Shown piece by piece: positions 12,401 to 20,355 of a stretch of DNA of 64,000 nucleotides. Within the stretch, counting starts at the first letter, position 1, and each line of letters begins with the position of its first letter. The translations under genes were made by a program, and so were the position numbers. The notes beneath the pieces are model-generated. The model had not been told where the DNA came from, made no database searches, and was given only the letters and a program-made list of their open reading frames with translations. Source of the stretch: an uncultured Clostridia bacterium (GTDB lineage Bacteria; Bacillota; Clostridia; Oscillospirales; Acutalibacteraceae); contig CANQGT010000001.1 of assembly GCA_947623505.1 (NCBI GenBank), positions 186,001 through 250,000 of the forward strand, given 5' to 3'.

Positions 12401-12476
12401 TGGTGGAGTATAGGGGACTTGAACCCCTGACCCCCACACTGCCAGTGTGGTGCGCTCCCAGCTGCGCTAATACCCC
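12401..12476 (-). tRNA. tRNA-Gly (anticodon GCC)
   Basis: A 76-nt cloverleaf with encoded CCA: acceptor GGGGTAT/ATACTCC, anticodon stem CCACA/TGTGG with loop CTGCCAG (anticodon GCC) and T arm GGGG-TTCAAGT-CCCC. Confidence 0.95.
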
Positions 12477-12636: not shown

Positions 12637-12713
12637 CGAGGTGTGGCTCAGTTTGGTAGAGCACCACGTTCGGGACGTGGGGGTCGCAAGTTCAAATCTT
12701 GTCACCTCGACCA
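12637..12713 (+). tRNA. tRNA-Pro (anticodon CGG)
   Basis: A 77-nt cloverleaf with encoded CCA: acceptor CGAGGTG/CACCTCG, anticodon stem CCACG/CGTGG with loop TTCGGGA (anticodon CGG, reads CCG) and T loop TTCAAAT. C1:G72 fits proline tRNAs of bacteria. Confidence 0.95.
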
Positions 12714-13128: not shown

Positions 13129-16100
13129 TCAGTCGCCGTCGTTTTTTCTCTTTTTGCTTCCAAAGAGTATATACGCGCCTACGAAAGCTACGGAGAGGAA
13201 CGCGGGGACAGCAACCTTTATGCCGGTTTCGGGGCTGATGGCGCTCCCTCCGTTTGCGGCAAGCTTATCTTCCGCCGTGCCGGGCTTATCGTCCGCAACG
13301 GGATTGGTTACGGTGCTGCCTGTATTATCGCCCGAACCGCTGTTGCCCGCGTTGGGATCAACCACCGGCGGTTTTTCCGGTTCGGTTTCGCCGTTGGTGC
13401 CGTAAATCGTAAGATTCGTTGTGATGGAATCATATGTGTAGAGAAGCACTACCTCGTGCTTGCCGAGCCTGAGTCCGTCAAGATAATCGGAATGGAACGA
13501 AACGAGCGTGGAGCCGTCGAAAAGATCATATTTGCTTTCGTCAACAAGCTTGCCGTCCATCATTACGGCGATAAACATATCTAACGGGCCTGAGCAGTGA
13601 ATATCCGCGCCCGTGCCCGAATATTCAAGATACGTTGAATCCGTAACATCATAGATTATCTCAAGATCAACATCATCATCGGGATCTGAGCCGGTAGGCT
13701 GAATGGGAACTCTCTTTTGAGAAAGTACCTTTCCGCATACCGTGCATTTAATGGTTTTGAGATAAGAGCCTACTCTGTCCGCCATGGGAGCAACGTATTC
13801 CGAAATTATCGGATCGCCCGCGGTGTGGGGCTTAAGATCAAGTTCCGAAGTAAAGGAGCTGTAGTTCTGGCCGCATACCTTGCAGAAGAGCTTGTTTTCC
13901 TGCCGGCCTTTTTCCGTGCAGGTGGATTCTTTTATAACGCTCTTTTCAACCTTTCCCTGAGTGTGCGGGATCATCGGCTGCGTAACGGTGGCGGATTTAC
14001 CGTAAACCTTGCCGCACATATTACAGGTGTATTCGTCATAATATTCGCCCGTTTGAGTGCAGGTGGCCTCTTTAAGAACAACTCTGTTTATGGAGCCTGT
14101 TCTATGGTAAATCTTCGGAGTTTCCCTGTCGGGAGAAACATTGTATTCCTCGCCGCAGATAACGCATACAAGCGCGTCATATTCAAGGCCGGTTTCACGG
14201 CAGGTGGCCTCTTTCTTGGTTCTTGTTACCTTTGTGCCGTCGGGGTGCGGAAGCTTGGCTACTGTTCTCTCTGCGGACTTATTATATTCCTCTCCGCAAG
14301 TATCGCATACGTTCGCATCGTGTTCCTTACCTTCGGCATAACAGGTTGCCACTACATCGGTTATCGTTTTGCGCGGGCCTTTATGCGGGATCATAGGAAT
14401 GTCTTTAGCGTTTTCGCTTTCTATGAACTTATTCTTGCAGACCGAGCAATAAACCTCATCGTGCTGCCTGCCCTTTTCCTTGCAGGTCGCATCCTTGTCA
14501 ATAACGGTTTCGACCCTGCCGCGGGTGTGCGGAGTCATAGGAATGTCTCTTACGTTTTCACTCGCTATAAACTTTTGTCCGCAGACCTTGCAATAAACCT
14601 CATCGTGCTGCCTGCCCTTTTTGGTGCAGGTCGCTTCATCGTCGATAACGGTTTTGACGTCGCCGCGCGTATGGTCGATTTTCGCTATCTCAAGGGCCTT
14701 AAGCGTGGTTGCTTTTTTGCCTTGATTGTCCGTAAAGAGTTTTTCGCATACGGAGCATTTATAATGCTTTTCATAGCCGACCGCCGTGCAGGTGGGAGCC
14801 ACCCTCGGTATCTCGCTTAAAGTGTGCTTATAAGGATCGGCGAGCGCGGAAAGCGTAGTCGGCTTTTGGCCGTCTTTATCGGTGAATATGTCCTTGCAGT
14901 CGCTGCACTGATAATGAGCCTTAACGCCGTTCTTTTGAGTCTTGCAGTCGGAGGGAACCGCCGCAACGGGAACGATATTCACATGGTTGTTCTCGTCTAT
15001 GCCGAGCTTCATATCATTAACATCGTCCAGCGGCTCCGTGTCGTTCTTATTTTCAAAAAACTTGCCGCATTTCTCGCATTCCCAATAAGCCTTCCAGCCT
15101 TCAACAACGCAAGTTGCCGTAACGGCTTTATGCTCTTTCGTAATAACGTGATGCGCGGGTATTTTGAGCTGTTCGTCCGTTGCCTTGTTAAGCCCTTTAT
15201 CGTCGGTGAACTTGGTTTTGCAGCCGCTGCAATAATAGTGAGCCTTAACACCGTCCTTGTCGCAGGTTTCGGGTTGTATCGCAACAGGCTTCAAATCGGT
15301 GTGATTTGCGGGATCTTTGGCGCGCAGCTTAGTTGATTCTTCGATTATATGATCGTCACTACCGTCGGGATTATCGAAGCAAGTGCCGCAGGTGTGGCAT
15401 TTCCAATACGCGTAATTGCCGCCTTCGGCGCAGGTCGGATCTTTCGCCTCAACGGGATCTATCGCGTGGTTTTTGGGGATAGCGTAAGTGGAATCATCGG
15501 ACTTCGCGTTTCTGTTCGCCTTAGCGTCTTCCATACTATCGTAATAATTGCCGCAGGCGTCGCAGTAAACGTGCGCTTCCATACCCTCCGCCTGGCAGGT
15601 CGGCCTTTGGTAGGCGACTTCCTTGGCGTTCTTATGATTCTTGGGATTGATATTCTCCTTAAGTTCGGGATTGGTTTCGGGATTTTCAACATAAACCTTG
15701 CTCGTGGTGCCTGTTGCATCCGTTTTGAATGCTTTGTGGCAATAGTCGCAGGTGTAGTACTGCATTCTGCCCTCGTCTTTGCAGGTGGCAGGATTCTCTT
15801 TTACCAACGTGCATTTGTGCCCCGTTGCCTGCAAAACCTTCGGCGCGTCAAATCCCTTTTCTTCTGTGGTGGGGTTATTTGTTGAATAATACTTCTGTCC
15901 GCAGCTGCCGGCGCCCTCTCTTGTGCACTGCCAGCATTTCTCAAGTCCGTTTTCAACGCAGGTCGCGTCTTTGCCCTTTACCTCTGTGAGCTCATGGCAT
16001 TTCGGCACGATATAAGAATTATCCTTTATCTCCTGAGTAGCGGCGGCGTTTGTGTATCTCCTTTTGCACTGCGTGCACTGATAGCCCGTTTCGCCGTCCT

Positions 16101-19100
16101 TTGTGCAGGTTGGGGATATATTTCTGCTTACAAGCGTTCCCTGATTTTTGCTAATGTCATAATGACCATTGAATGTGGTATCTATCGGAGTGTTAACGGA
16201 ATTTTTATCCTCTATTTTATCCGTAAGAGAATCGTCGTTGAAATAATCATGGCAATCTTTGCATTCGTAATATAGCTTGTTGCCGCCCTCCATGCACGTT
16301 GCGCGCTTCTCATCGTGAGTTATCACATCGCCGTGGGAGCGTGGGATAACGATATTATCCATCGGCTCTGTTCCGGCCTCATCGCTGAAGTTCTTTTTGC
16401 AGGTTTCGCAGTAATAGTGATCCTCTACGCCGTCCTTGTAGCATTCTTTTTCCTGTCTGTCGATGTGCTTCAGCGCTGCGGGATGATCCGTGTCGGTGTG
16501 TTTTATCGTTATCTCATCATCGCTCGCCGGCGTTTCGGCGCGCAAATCATCGGATAAGAATTTTTGTTTGCAAGCGGAACATTCATAATATTCATTGTTG
16601 CCGTCCGCAACGCAAGTCGGTTCCTTTTTCTCCGTCTTACCATTGTTGAAGTCGTGCTTCCACTCTACGGTAAACGAATTTGCGTCTTTCTGCGGGTGTT
16701 CAAATCCCGTATCGTCGGCGGCGTAATAATTTTTGCAATCCTTGCAATAAACATATGCCTTGTTGCCGTCCTTCATAGTAATGCAACTCGGAGTTACCGC
16801 GGGGGTAGGAGTCGGCGTTGTCGCATGATTTTTGGGATTTTTAGTTTCCTTAAGTTCGGCATTGGTTTCGGGATTTTCAACATAATCCGTTCTCGTGGTG
16901 CCTGTTGCATCCGTTTTGAATGCTTTTGAGCAAACATCGCAGGTGTAGTACGCCTTTCTGCCATCTGCTATGCAGGTGGCGGGTATCGCTTCATGCAATG
17001 TGCACTTGACGTGCCCCGTCGCATCGATTACTTTCGGCGCATCGAAGCCCGTTTTTATATCTGCGGATTTATCGTTTGTTGAATAATACTTTCCGCAGCC
17101 GCCCTCTCTTGTGCACTTATAGCATTCCTCTTGACCGGGGTCAACGCAGGTTGCGTCTTTGCCCTCAGTTTTTGCCCCGAAAATATGGCACTTCGGAATT
17201 TTAACGGAATTTTTGTCGTCTATCTTATTCTCGTTCACAAGAGAATCTTTGCTGAAATATTCACCGCAATCCTTGCATTCCCAATACTGCTTGTTGCCGT
17301 CCGTTGTGCAGGTTTCCTTAACGGCGGGATGCGGTATCGCCTCGCCGTGGGAAGCGGGGATATTGATATAGTTGTCGTCCGCCGGATCTGTTCCCGCCGC
17401 ATTCTTAAATTTCTGTTTGCATACCGAGCAGGTGTAATACTCATTGTTGCCCGGGGTGGTGCAGGTCTTAGCCTTAGCTTCCGTCTTATCCTCATCGGGA
17501 TCTATGGTATGCTTCCACTCTACGGTAAACGAGCTTGCGTTATTCTGCGGGTGTTCAAATCTCGTATCGTCGGCGGCAAAATACTTGCCGCAATCCGTGC
17601 AATGAACATACGCCACATTGCCGTTCGTCTTGGTGGCGCAATCTGGATCGTTCGCCTCGGTGCGCTCAAGATTTTTATGCTGCGTGCCGGCTGTTCCGAT
17701 AACGGCAAGTATAGCCTCTTCGCTTTCGTAAGGCATACCGCTTCCGTCAGGCTCTTCGAAATACTTGTGGCATGGAGCATAATAGGTGGGATCAAGTCCG
17801 TCGCGCCCGCCTACGACTACATTGCACTGATAATATGCGGGATAGTTCTTTTCATTGCAATACGCGTCTGTTTTTGCCTCTATTTTTGTCATCTGCGAAG
17901 AATGATCGATCTTCGGTATCGTGATATTCTCACTGGTCTTATCATCTATTGATTGATGGCAGTTTTGGCACATCCATAAGAAATCAAAATGCCCATCTTC
18001 GGTGCAGGTCGCCTTTTTTACATTTTCTTCTGAGACAGCACCTATAAGTCCATCATTTGCTTCTTGATATTTTCCTGCGTTACGCAGTTCTTCTTGCTCC
18101 GGGGTAAGTTCATGCTTTGTGAGCTTTGCGTATGCGTCGTTCAACGCGGTCGCGAGACTTTGAGCCTGCGCCGGGTCGCTGTAATTCCCGGTTTTTCCGC
18201 TATCCGCTATAAAATCCTGAGCGTTTTTAAAAGCTTTGGCAAAACCAATATTACCTTCCGAATCCCCATTCCATGTCTCGTCGCAGTAAACGATAGGAGT
18301 GTTGCCCGCATCGTAGGTAACCAATGTATCCTTTATCGCTTTGCGGAGTGATTCAAAGCCGTCCCCGTCCTTGGTCATCGCTCCGCTTAACGCGTTGTTT
18401 ATGCCGTCAACGGCGTTTTTAATATCGTTGCCGATAGCGTCTACCTCACCGCTAAGCGTGGGAATAAGCGTAGATTCATTTGTTCCGCTCGCGGTGATTT
18501 TGCCGTTGTAATCGTAATCCATCGCGGTTTTAAAAGCGGTAAGCACATTGTTAAGCCCGCCCTCGCTGTAATCGGCGATATTTTTGAGACAATCCGTAAC
18601 GCGGGTGTCTTTAACGCCGCTTTTTACGGCGTCTATAAGCAACTTATAATTTATAACATATATATCGGTATCGCCGGTAATCGTATCAAAAATATCTCCA
18701 GTCCAATTTCCGCCGTTATCTTGTTGGGGATTTGCTGAACCGCCGGCGTAAAGTGTAAACGACGGGCGGAGTTTCTCAACATATACGCCGGAATCGGCGG
18801 GATTTAAATAATCTATATATGTTGCGGCGTAGGCATAGCGGTTATTAGAATTATTTTTATGTTGTAGAGAGGTAGTCGTACTATCAGTTGGGGATGAAGC
18901 GAGTATTATACTTCCGGTATAATTCCAGTAATAGTCTCTCGTAGATGTACCGCCTTCAAAATGGGAGCGCCATGGTCTTGTTATTTTAAGGTTGCTGTTA
19001 TTTACCGACGCGCCGTAAAAATAGCGCTTTTTATTATTAGTCCAGCCCGTACCGCCTTCACCTCTCGCGCCGACAAGGACGGGGAAGGTGGGAGTTGTAG

Positions 19101-19692
19101 TACCGTCATAAACCATGACCGAAATGGGATAGTTGATTTCTAATATTGTATATTTTTCATTAGCAGAATGATCAACCCAACCACGACCATATGAATCGGT
19201 GTTATAGCCTTTTTCAAGCCACAACAGATTCTTATGGTCGTTTTTTATATTGCCCCAATCACCGGAGTCGTAGCTAAACAATCTGTCGGTGTCCGTCATA
19301 TTGTTGCCGATTACGGTTTTTGGAGACCAAGAAGTCCATGTATCGATTTTGTCGGTCACTTCGTTGAGCTGAGTAATATATGACTGGACAATACCCTTAT
19401 TTCCCAAGTCATCGATATTGTTGCCGAGATAATACTGATCGTAAATTTTGGAAAGAGCAACATATTTACTGTAAGCGTCCGGCAATTCAACATACACTTC
19501 TCCGCTTGCCGCCATTTTTGCGTTAAACTTATTTTCAAAATTGGTAAGAGCGGTCTCGATATCCGATTTCAATCCGTAGGTGTCACGCGCGTAAGCCTTA
19601 GGCGTTGACAAAACGGACGCGATGCAAACAGACGCCGCGACAATAAACGCGACTGCGAAGAACGCTATTCGCTTTCCTGTTTTACTCCTCAT
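13129..19692 (-). CDS. Giant sortase-anchored surface protein with about 26 CxxC repeat modules
   Basis: A 2187-residue exported protein. The start at 19692 has GGGGG seven bases upstream and opens a signal peptide (RSKTGKRIAFFAVAFIVAAS, cleavage near AYA-RD). Residues ~40-540 are a non-repetitive head. From ~550 to ~1990 there are about 26 modules of 45-65 residues with the pattern (K/E)-A-T-C-x5-G-x5-Y-x-C-x2-C-x2-x-F, each closing with a His-containing PH/GH turn; each holds three Cys and could bind metal or form disulfides. Blocks of several modules are themselves duplicated: EHPQ..SFTVEWKH and CYKCTREGGCGKYYSTN-like units recur. A non-repeat Ig-like domain, a Pro/Gly/Ser linker and SPETG at residue 2153 follow, then a hydrophobic stretch and KKRK, the (S/P)PXTG signal of clostridial class B sortases. 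Adhesin role is inference. Expression is probably phase-variable (see promoter). Confidence 0.85.
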   Translation of the reverse strand: MRSKTGKRIAFFAVAFIVAASVCIASVLSTPKAYARDTYGLKSDIETALTNFENKFNAKMAASGEVYVELPDAYSKYVALSKIYDQYYLGNNIDDLGNKGIVQSYITQLNEVTDKIDTWTSWSPKTVIGNNMTDTDRLFSYDSGDWGNIKNDHKNLLWLEKGYNTDSYGRGWVDHSANEKYTILEINYPISVMVYDGTTTPTFPVLVGARGEGGTGWTNNKKRYFYGASVNNSNLKITRPWRSHFEGGTSTRDYYWNYTGSIILASSPTDSTTTSLQHKNNSNNRYAYAATYIDYLNPADSGVYVEKLRPSFTLYAGGSANPQQDNGGNWTGDIFDTITGDTDIYVINYKLLIDAVKSGVKDTRVTDCLKNIADYSEGGLNNVLTAFKTAMDYDYNGKITASGTNESTLIPTLSGEVDAIGNDIKNAVDGINNALSGAMTKDGDGFESLRKAIKDTLVTYDAGNTPIVYCDETWNGDSEGNIGFAKAFKNAQDFIADSGKTGNYSDPAQAQSLATALNDAYAKLTKHELTPEQEELRNAGKYQEANDGLIGAVSEENVKKATCTEDGHFDFLWMCQNCHQSIDDKTSENITIPKIDHSSQMTKIEAKTDAYCNEKNYPAYYQCNVVVGGRDGLDPTYYAPCHKYFEEPDGSGMPYESEEAILAVIGTAGTQHKNLERTEANDPDCATKTNGNVAYVHCTDCGKYFAADDTRFEHPQNNASSFTVEWKHTIDPDEDKTEAKAKTCTTPGNNEYYTCSVCKQKFKNAAGTDPADDNYINIPASHGEAIPHPAVKETCTTDGNKQYWECKDCGEYFSKDSLVNENKIDDKNSVKIPKCHIFGAKTEGKDATCVDPGQEECYKCTREGGCGKYYSTNDKSADIKTGFDAPKVIDATGHVKCTLHEAIPATCIADGRKAYYTCDVCSKAFKTDATGTTRTDYVENPETNAELKETKNPKNHATTPTPTPAVTPSCITMKDGNKAYVYCKDCKNYYAADDTGFEHPQKDANSFTVEWKHDFNNGKTEKKEPTCVADGNNEYYECSACKQKFLSDDLRAETPASDDEITIKHTDTDHPAALKHIDRQEKECYKDGVEDHYYCETCKKNFSDEAGTEPMDNIVIPRSHGDVITHDEKRATCMEGGNKLYYECKDCHDYFNDDSLTDKIEDKNSVNTPIDTTFNGHYDISKNQGTLVSRNISPTCTKDGETGYQCTQCKRRYTNAAATQEIKDNSYIVPKCHELTEVKGKDATCVENGLEKCWQCTREGAGSCGQKYYSTNNPTTEEKGFDAPKVLQATGHKCTLVKENPATCKDEGRMQYYTCDYCHKAFKTDATGTTSKVYVENPETNPELKENINPKNHKNAKEVAYQRPTCQAEGMEAHVYCDACGNYYDSMEDAKANRNAKSDDSTYAIPKNHAIDPVEAKDPTCAEGGNYAYWKCHTCGTCFDNPDGSDDHIIEESTKLRAKDPANHTDLKPVAIQPETCDKDGVKAHYYCSGCKTKFTDDKGLNKATDEQLKIPAHHVITKEHKAVTATCVVEGWKAYWECEKCGKFFENKNDTEPLDDVNDMKLGIDENNHVNIVPVAAVPSDCKTQKNGVKAHYQCSDCKDIFTDKDGQKPTTLSALADPYKHTLSEIPRVAPTCTAVGYEKHYKCSVCEKLFTDNQGKKATTLKALEIAKIDHTRGDVKTVIDDEATCTKKGRQHDEVYCKVCGQKFIASENVRDIPMTPHTRGRVETVIDKDATCKEKGRQHDEVYCSVCKNKFIESENAKDIPMIPHKGPRKTITDVVATCYAEGKEHDANVCDTCGEEYNKSAERTVAKLPHPDGTKVTRTKKEATCRETGLEYDALVCVICGEEYNVSPDRETPKIYHRTGSINRVVLKEATCTQTGEYYDEYTCNMCGKVYGKSATVTQPMIPHTQGKVEKSVIKESTCTEKGRQENKLFCKVCGQNYSSFTSELDLKPHTAGDPIISEYVAPMADRVGSYLKTIKCTVCGKVLSQKRVPIQPTGSDPDDDVDLEIIYDVTDSTYLEYSGTGADIHCSGPLDMFIAVMMDGKLVDESKYDLFDGSTLVSFHSDYLDGLRLGKHEVVLLYTYDSITTNLTIYGTNGETEPEKPPVVDPNAGNSGSGDNTGSTVTNPVADDKPGTAEDKLAANGGSAISPETGIKVAVPAFLSVAFVGAYILFGSKKRKNDGD

Positions 19693-19770
19693 TTTAATGC
19701 CCCCAAATAACAAATAACATATAAGGTAAATAATACTAAGCCTCTTAAAAGAGACTATTATCCAAATATA

Positions 19771-19798
19771 ATTATAGCACCCCCCCCCGAAAAATCAA
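19771..19798 (-). promoter_or_regulatory. Promoter with a nine-G tract in the spacer (candidate phase-variable promoter)
   Basis: On the minus strand TTGATT (19798-19793) and TATAAT (19776-19771) are separated by 16 bases: TTTC, nine G, TGC. A run of G between -35 and -10 is a classic slipped-strand switch that changes spacer length and promoter strength. The predicted start of transcription is about 70 bases before the ATG of the surface protein gene. Confidence 0.75.
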
Positions 19799-20168: not shown

Positions 20169-20253
<85 letters not shown>

Positions 20254-20279: not shown

Positions 20280-20355
20280 TGGAGCTGGTGAACGGACTCG
20301 AACCCCTGACCTGCTGATTACAAATCAGCTGCTCTACCAACTGAGCTACACCAGC
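20280..20355 (-). tRNA. tRNA-Thr (anticodon TGT)
   Basis: A 76-nt cloverleaf with encoded CCA: acceptor GCTGGTG/CACCAGC, anticodon loop TTGTAAT (anticodon TGT), T loop TTCGAGT. It lies 26 bases upstream of tRNA-Tyr on the same strand, forming a two-gene tRNA operon with one shared terminator. Confidence 0.95.

Follow-up and report, generated by a model that had tools for sequence, protein, structure and literature searches.

A promoter with a G-tract spacer, probably adjustable by slippage, before the gene of a predicted surface protein in an uncultured gut Clostridia bacterium

The window, that is, the whole stretch of 64,000 nucleotides analysed here, comes from an uncultured Clostridia bacterium whose draft genome comprises 1,824,825 bases in 24 contigs and is 96.67% complete. 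On its minus strand lies the gene of a large predicted secreted protein, preceded by a leader and by a pair of promoter hexamers whose gap contains nine consecutive Gs. The gene stands alone between two pairs of tRNA genes (12404-12476 and 12637-12710; 20172-20253 and 20283-20355), as an insertion beside tRNAs might. The features are as follows.

13129..19692, minus strand: gene of a 2187-residue predicted secreted protein with a signal segment, 26 CxxC motifs, SPETG, a membrane segment and KKRK
19739..19756 (region 19739-19764), minus strand: 5' leader stem-loop, AGTCTCT-TTTA-AGAGGCT, directly behind the presumed transcription start
19771..19776, minus strand: -10 hexamer TATAAT; TATAAT or TAAAAT in five aligned promoters
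19777..19779, minus strand: TGC, supplying the TG of an extended -10; TG conserved across the five aligned promoters
19780..19788, minus strand: tract of nine Gs (G9) inside the -35/-10 gap, read as nine Cs on the plus strand
19793..19798, minus strand: -35 hexamer TTGATT, 4/6 to consensus; this -35 is also found in the ortholog of genome G019 and in two homologs of genome G034

The gene start was placed at the ATG at 19692, which yields the 2187 residues; the mechanically called ORF opens at a TTG seven codons upstream (2194 aa). The protein begins with a hydrophobic, signal-like segment, carries its 26 CxxC motifs in a repeating unit about 50 residues long (ATCT..G...Y..C..CG..F), and ends, in the manner of a sorting signal, with SPETG, a hydrophobic membrane stretch and the basic KKRK tail at the C-terminus. 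SPxTG is a sortase motif of Clostridia, and three sortase hits above cut-off are present elsewhere in the genome; from these sequence features only, the protein is probably a wall-anchored surface protein. No family was found in Pfam and NCBIfam at E 0.01, LRR_5 (the BspA-type LRR) being likewise without a match in Pfam at this threshold, and no family name was given; the repeats of the protein aligned poorly. Similar CxxC repeats occur in two proteins that themselves stand behind other G-tract promoters, L198 of an uncultured Clostridia bacterium (E 1.8e-15) and L162 of a genome of the same family as the window (E 1.6e-12).

On the minus strand the promoter reads TTGATT-TTTC-GGGGGGGGG-TGC-TATAAT, has a gap of 16 and is located about 80 bases upstream of the ATG. 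The original prediction had placed a G run between TTGATT and TATAAT with a 16-base gap, called it the longest G/C homopolymer of the window and assigned the downstream gene to a large anchored surface protein; the first is confirmed at 19771-19798, the second agrees with a next longest G/C run of 6, and the third, a matter of sequence features, is borne out by the signal segment, the SPETG tail and the three sortase matches. The extended -10 was absent from that prediction. In the entire draft genome the tract is the sole run of at least 8 Gs (two listed matches are overlaps of it). As in porA-type promoters, a homopolymer of at least 8 lies inside the -35/-10 gap, and the gap, at 16, is within one or two units of 17.

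How much the hexamers themselves can tell is limited. The window contains 12 sites of the form TTGA..-(15 to 19)-TATAAT, in whose gaps a 9-mer can be seated at 109 start positions, and with both strands counted a random 9-mer would fall inside such a gap at a fraction of 0.00085 of positions, a figure computed post hoc. A simple promoter scanner found 21 promoter-like sites in the window against 12.4 (sd 3.6) in shuffles; this excess is modest, and therefore the hexamers alone are weak evidence and the weight is carried by recurrence in other genomes. The leader stem-loop, common to the window, the G019 ortholog and the G034 homologs, folds weakly better than shuffles (z -1.57, with 18/200 shuffles equally good). 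The site is very likely a genuine promoter with an adjustable gap.

In the mechanism proposed here, the G9 tract would act as a promoter gap of adjustable length before the gene of a predicted wall-anchored surface protein. Slipped-strand mispairing during replication would cause the tract to gain or lose Gs, each of which would shift the distance between TTGATT and TATAAT by one base and thereby grade or switch transcription, so that the cell could vary its surface. With nine Gs the gap is 16 and the assembled state probably intermediate; with ten it would be 17 and expression probably high. Thanks to its extended -10, the promoter should remain partly active at other tract lengths, and gap length may be less important to it. 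Among the points against such a switch are that the promoter's own -35, TTGATT, is weaker than TTGACA, and that mutS1 is present, which means that slippage would be held down.

Some match to the 2187-residue protein, mostly in its repeats, is present in 40/60 genus genomes. The closest homolog, in G019, has the promoter TTGATT-TTTTTTGTGGGAGAGGTGC-TATAAT, with the same -35, -10, leader and start as the window, a gap of 19 and an interrupted tract (GTGGGAGAGG). The ortholog gene itself (L034, G019:C9) lies in pieces across frames, with two TAG within the match of the first piece, and may represent a pseudogene, a draft error or a switch. Three diverged homologous promoters (two of G034, one of G019) lack a G tract and combine TTGATT or TTGAAA with TGA, TAAAAT and a gap of exactly 17. 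This comparison indicates that a pure G tract is new in the window lineage, within a promoter whose hexamers, TG and leader stem-loop are old. Because the G019 tract is interrupted and its gap 19, the switch, if real, would be recent in the lineage of the window; because the diverged promoters have gap 17, ten Gs are the likely optimum at the window promoter, which strengthens the original claim that one G more would give the optimal 17. The wider claim of a switch is favored by the position of the tract in the promoter, the gap, the anchored protein and the promoter class, and is weakened by the G019 ortholog. On balance, switching or grading of the surface-protein gene through slippage of the tract is judged to be quite probable.

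The same G019 gap, with GTGGGAGAGG at the same place, is also what would be expected if the promoter is real and its tract static, drift having turned a purine-rich gap to Gs alone without selection for switching, and the presence of mutS1 and of a single long tract in the genome fits this account as well. It is nevertheless considered unlikely, since long tracts recur at this position between strict hexamers, independently and in many genera, related promoters differ in tract length, and the genes behind such promoters show a preference for secreted proteins.

Recurrence was sought at several taxonomic depths. In the genus (80 genomes), a loose tract-TATAAT pattern gave 10 matches versus 5 in the control, of which two look like promoters by context and most are apparently inside genes; as proof of design, the loose genus pattern was set aside as weak. 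Another species of the genus, G061, carries TTGAAT-TTTC-G11-TAC-TATAAT with a gap of 18, upstream of a 1011-aa ORF for a secreted protein. In the family (398 genomes), a fuller but still loose pattern returned 43 rows, representing 38 distinct tracts, versus 24 in the reversed control, and 12/43 rows have TTGAC with TANAAT. In the class (391 genomes), a strict pattern, outside which the window's own promoter falls by virtue of its TTGATT, returned 11 matches in 4 genomes versus 0 in the reversed control, 8 of the 11 coming from G820. Clean separation from the control is thus achieved by the stricter patterns only. G820 is a 1.6 Mb Clostridia assembly (loci including L190, L228 and L251) whose eight strict promoters mostly share a TTGACAAAC-G9-TGATATAAT core.

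The strict recurrence of 11 versus 0 bears on the suspicion that the window tract is a product of chance or of assembly. Poly-G runs of 24 and 31 that border Ns or the end of a contig do occur in some drafts (L071, L091) and look like artefacts of assembly, and yet the window tract lies in the interior of a contig of more than 250 kb, between ordinary sequence, and its -10 and leader are conserved; such an origin is extremely improbable.

A further scan, of named-species genomes, asked for TTGA and a gap of 11-19, with no reversed control and with the upper gap edge set by the pattern; it returned at least 120 stretches, of which 80 were listed, and together with 4 viral stretches these gave 127 sites for examination. 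Among the matches listed, the gap is 11 at 1 site, 12 at 4, 14 at 8, 15 at 23, 16 at 36, 17 at 14, 18 at 26 and 19 at 15, so that 114/127 sites have gaps of 15-19; the full TTGACA is present at 83/127 sites though the pattern required TTGA only, the tract stands directly against TATAAT at 66/127, and a TGN linker like that of the window promoter occurs at 22/127. The taxa among these listed matches include Clostridia, Bacilli, Lachnospiraceae, Saccharibacteria, Ancillula, Borkfalkia, Pumilibacter, Streptococcus, Treponema and Helicobacter. In one assembly of Candidatus Ancillula (JAIRWY01; L175, L183, L192, L197, L212, L240), there are six G-tract promoters with tracts of 9-13 and gaps of 15-19, and in Treponema sp. 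(L246, JAAVAP010000012.1) a G9-tract promoter, TTGACA-gap 19-TATAAT, lies some 100 bases upstream of a gene resembling Cas12a. A search of viral contigs with the flanks of the window promoter for other tract lengths gave 0 matches. Altogether, the comparative evidence for a class of putative promoters with G-tract spacers is strong.

These sites also speak to the idea that the G run acts by binding a protein or by forming a G-rich DNA structure, its length variation being incidental. In its favor, 10/127 sites among the matches listed reach 12-13 Gs or more. No positive evidence for it was found, many tracts abut the -10, and among the matches listed the gap is 14-19 at 122/127 sites under a pattern allowing 11-19, as a promoter gap demands; this explanation is accordingly regarded as very unlikely.

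If tracts act as adjustable gaps through slippage, related promoters may be expected to differ in tract length. When 138 sites were sorted by relatedness, 11 groups of promoters formed, in 7 of which tract length differed and in 4 of which it was the same, with the limits that members of a group are paralogs or come from different species, not strains, and that draft assemblies may misstate tract lengths, a warning also given for Bifidobacterium breve (PMC9187656). The clearest pair, in G277, consists of two promoters alike on both sides, one with G9 and a gap of 15 and the other with G11 and a gap of 17. The six promoters of the Ancillula assembly have 9, 11, 11, 12, 12 and 13 Gs, and nearly all of the eight in G820 have nine; this uniformity, like that of the 4 groups, speaks against switching. 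Mismatch-repair loss as a cause of tract-rich genomes was rejected, as mutS1 was matched in 30/30 genomes tried, tract-rich and tract-poor, 28 of them above cut-off; the two matches below it belong to G041 and G278, both fragmented or incomplete drafts.

The genes that such promoters precede were compared with other ORFs of the same loci. A signal-like N-terminus is encoded by 56/91 genes behind G-tract promoters (the window's included) versus 65/339 control ORFs, the downstream genes being those of at least 150 residues with a ribosome-binding site, the signal rule and ORF choice being home-made and crude, and some control ORFs perhaps not being genes; under the rule used, 14/134 promoter sites have no ORF. 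In Pfam, which was applied to 70 of 90 other downstream proteins with 20 left out, LRR_5 matched 10/70, followed by Listeria-Bacteroides repeats (5), InlB B-repeat-like domains (4), ABC transporter ATPases (4), collagen (3), dockerin (3), YSIRK signals (2) and Cas12a (one). Predicted surface proteins thus predominate behind G-tract promoters, in the company of others.

Long G tracts also occur within coding genes of the genus, where runs of at least nine Gs are carried by 24/80 genomes and absent from 56. For 74 such runs examined, 4 near locus ends were dropped, as was one more with N from the count of flanks. Among the tract-spanning ORFs, 38 of 42 were scanned for families (4 left out), and these include acyltransferases (8), glycosyltransferases, LicD (3), cytidylyltransferases (3), DNA methylases (2) and others; surface-glycan and DNA-methylase genes are the usual targets of phase variation, and a set of switchable tract-bearing genes in the genus can be likened to that of Campylobacter. 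Loci with coding G tracts include L062, L063, L066, L069, L100, L104, L106, L113, L121 and L122. At several loci, L122 and L113 among them, the open frame stops just past the tract and another frame continues, the usual picture of slippage-switched genes; since frames are broken at coding tracts, slippage in the genus is likely.

The flanks of these tracts are biased. In the genus (L055-L122), C precedes and T follows the Gs in 47/69 tracts of at least nine Gs versus 12-13% for runs of 4-5, and with one tract per similarity group the C..T flanks are found in 15/18 with G on the coding strand, 7/7 with C on it and 6/20 without a long ORF. Family-wide, C-G9-T occurs 42 times (11 of them in one genome) versus 11 for T-G9-C, and the window tract is C-G9-T. 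It is conceivable, if rather doubtful, that long G tracts of the genus have a constant, strand-oriented frame, with C ahead of the Gs and T behind them (often GC..TA), whichever strand codes. Such a frame would suggest that a dedicated factor, or biased repair or replication, makes, keeps or slips the tracts as one genome-wide switching system for promoters and coding genes.

If the proposed switch is true, uncultured gut Clostridia and several of the other lineages scanned would use the G count of a promoter to vary their surface lipoproteins, LRR proteins and sortase-type proteins, in parallel to host-adapted Gram-negative bacteria. The downstream genes would be candidate phage receptors, adhesins and immune targets that look 'on' in one strain and 'off' in another with no gene gained or lost, and metagenomes would offer a simple sequence rule for switchable surface genes, with strain-level tests possible from existing reads.

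The literature searched, to which subscription papers and preprints did not belong, yielded no description of a clostridial promoter with a G-tract spacer; this agrees with the original remark that the design is little described in commensal Clostridia, although it occurs frequently in genome data. G-tract slippage is known from Bifidobacterium breve, in a study reportedly by Penno and colleagues. In B. breve UCC2003, it affects sortase-dependent pili, and promoter-spacer tracts are only mentioned (PMC9187656); B. breve resembles the window in being a gut commensal with surface structures and G tracts, and differs in being one of the Actinobacteria and in that the tracts studied lie inside coding sequence. 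A survey of homopolymers in prokaryotes is centred on coding genes (PMC2831843). According to a 2025 review, the invertible promoters of Clostridioides difficile switch transcription by a reversible DNA change (PMC11868660); they share with the present proposal a reversible DNA switch within Clostridia, and use site-specific inversion rather than slippage. The fimbrial promoter of Haemophilus influenzae has a repeat that is a dinucleotide, as opposed to the single-base tract here, and a Gram-negative host. As in the proposal for the window, slippage there changes the length of the -35/-10 gap (PMC9187656). The closest precedent is porA of Neisseria meningitidis, in which poly-G lies between -35 and -10 and variants of 9G, 10G and 11G alter the level of expression (PMC3639595). 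Like it, the window has a G tract between the promoter hexamers of a predicted surface-protein gene; unlike it, the window belongs to another phylum, combines TTGATT with an extended -10, encodes a sortase-type protein and is known here from sequence alone. A porA-like switch is a known device, and what is unusual is its apparent breadth in Clostridia, beyond the reports found in the literature searched.
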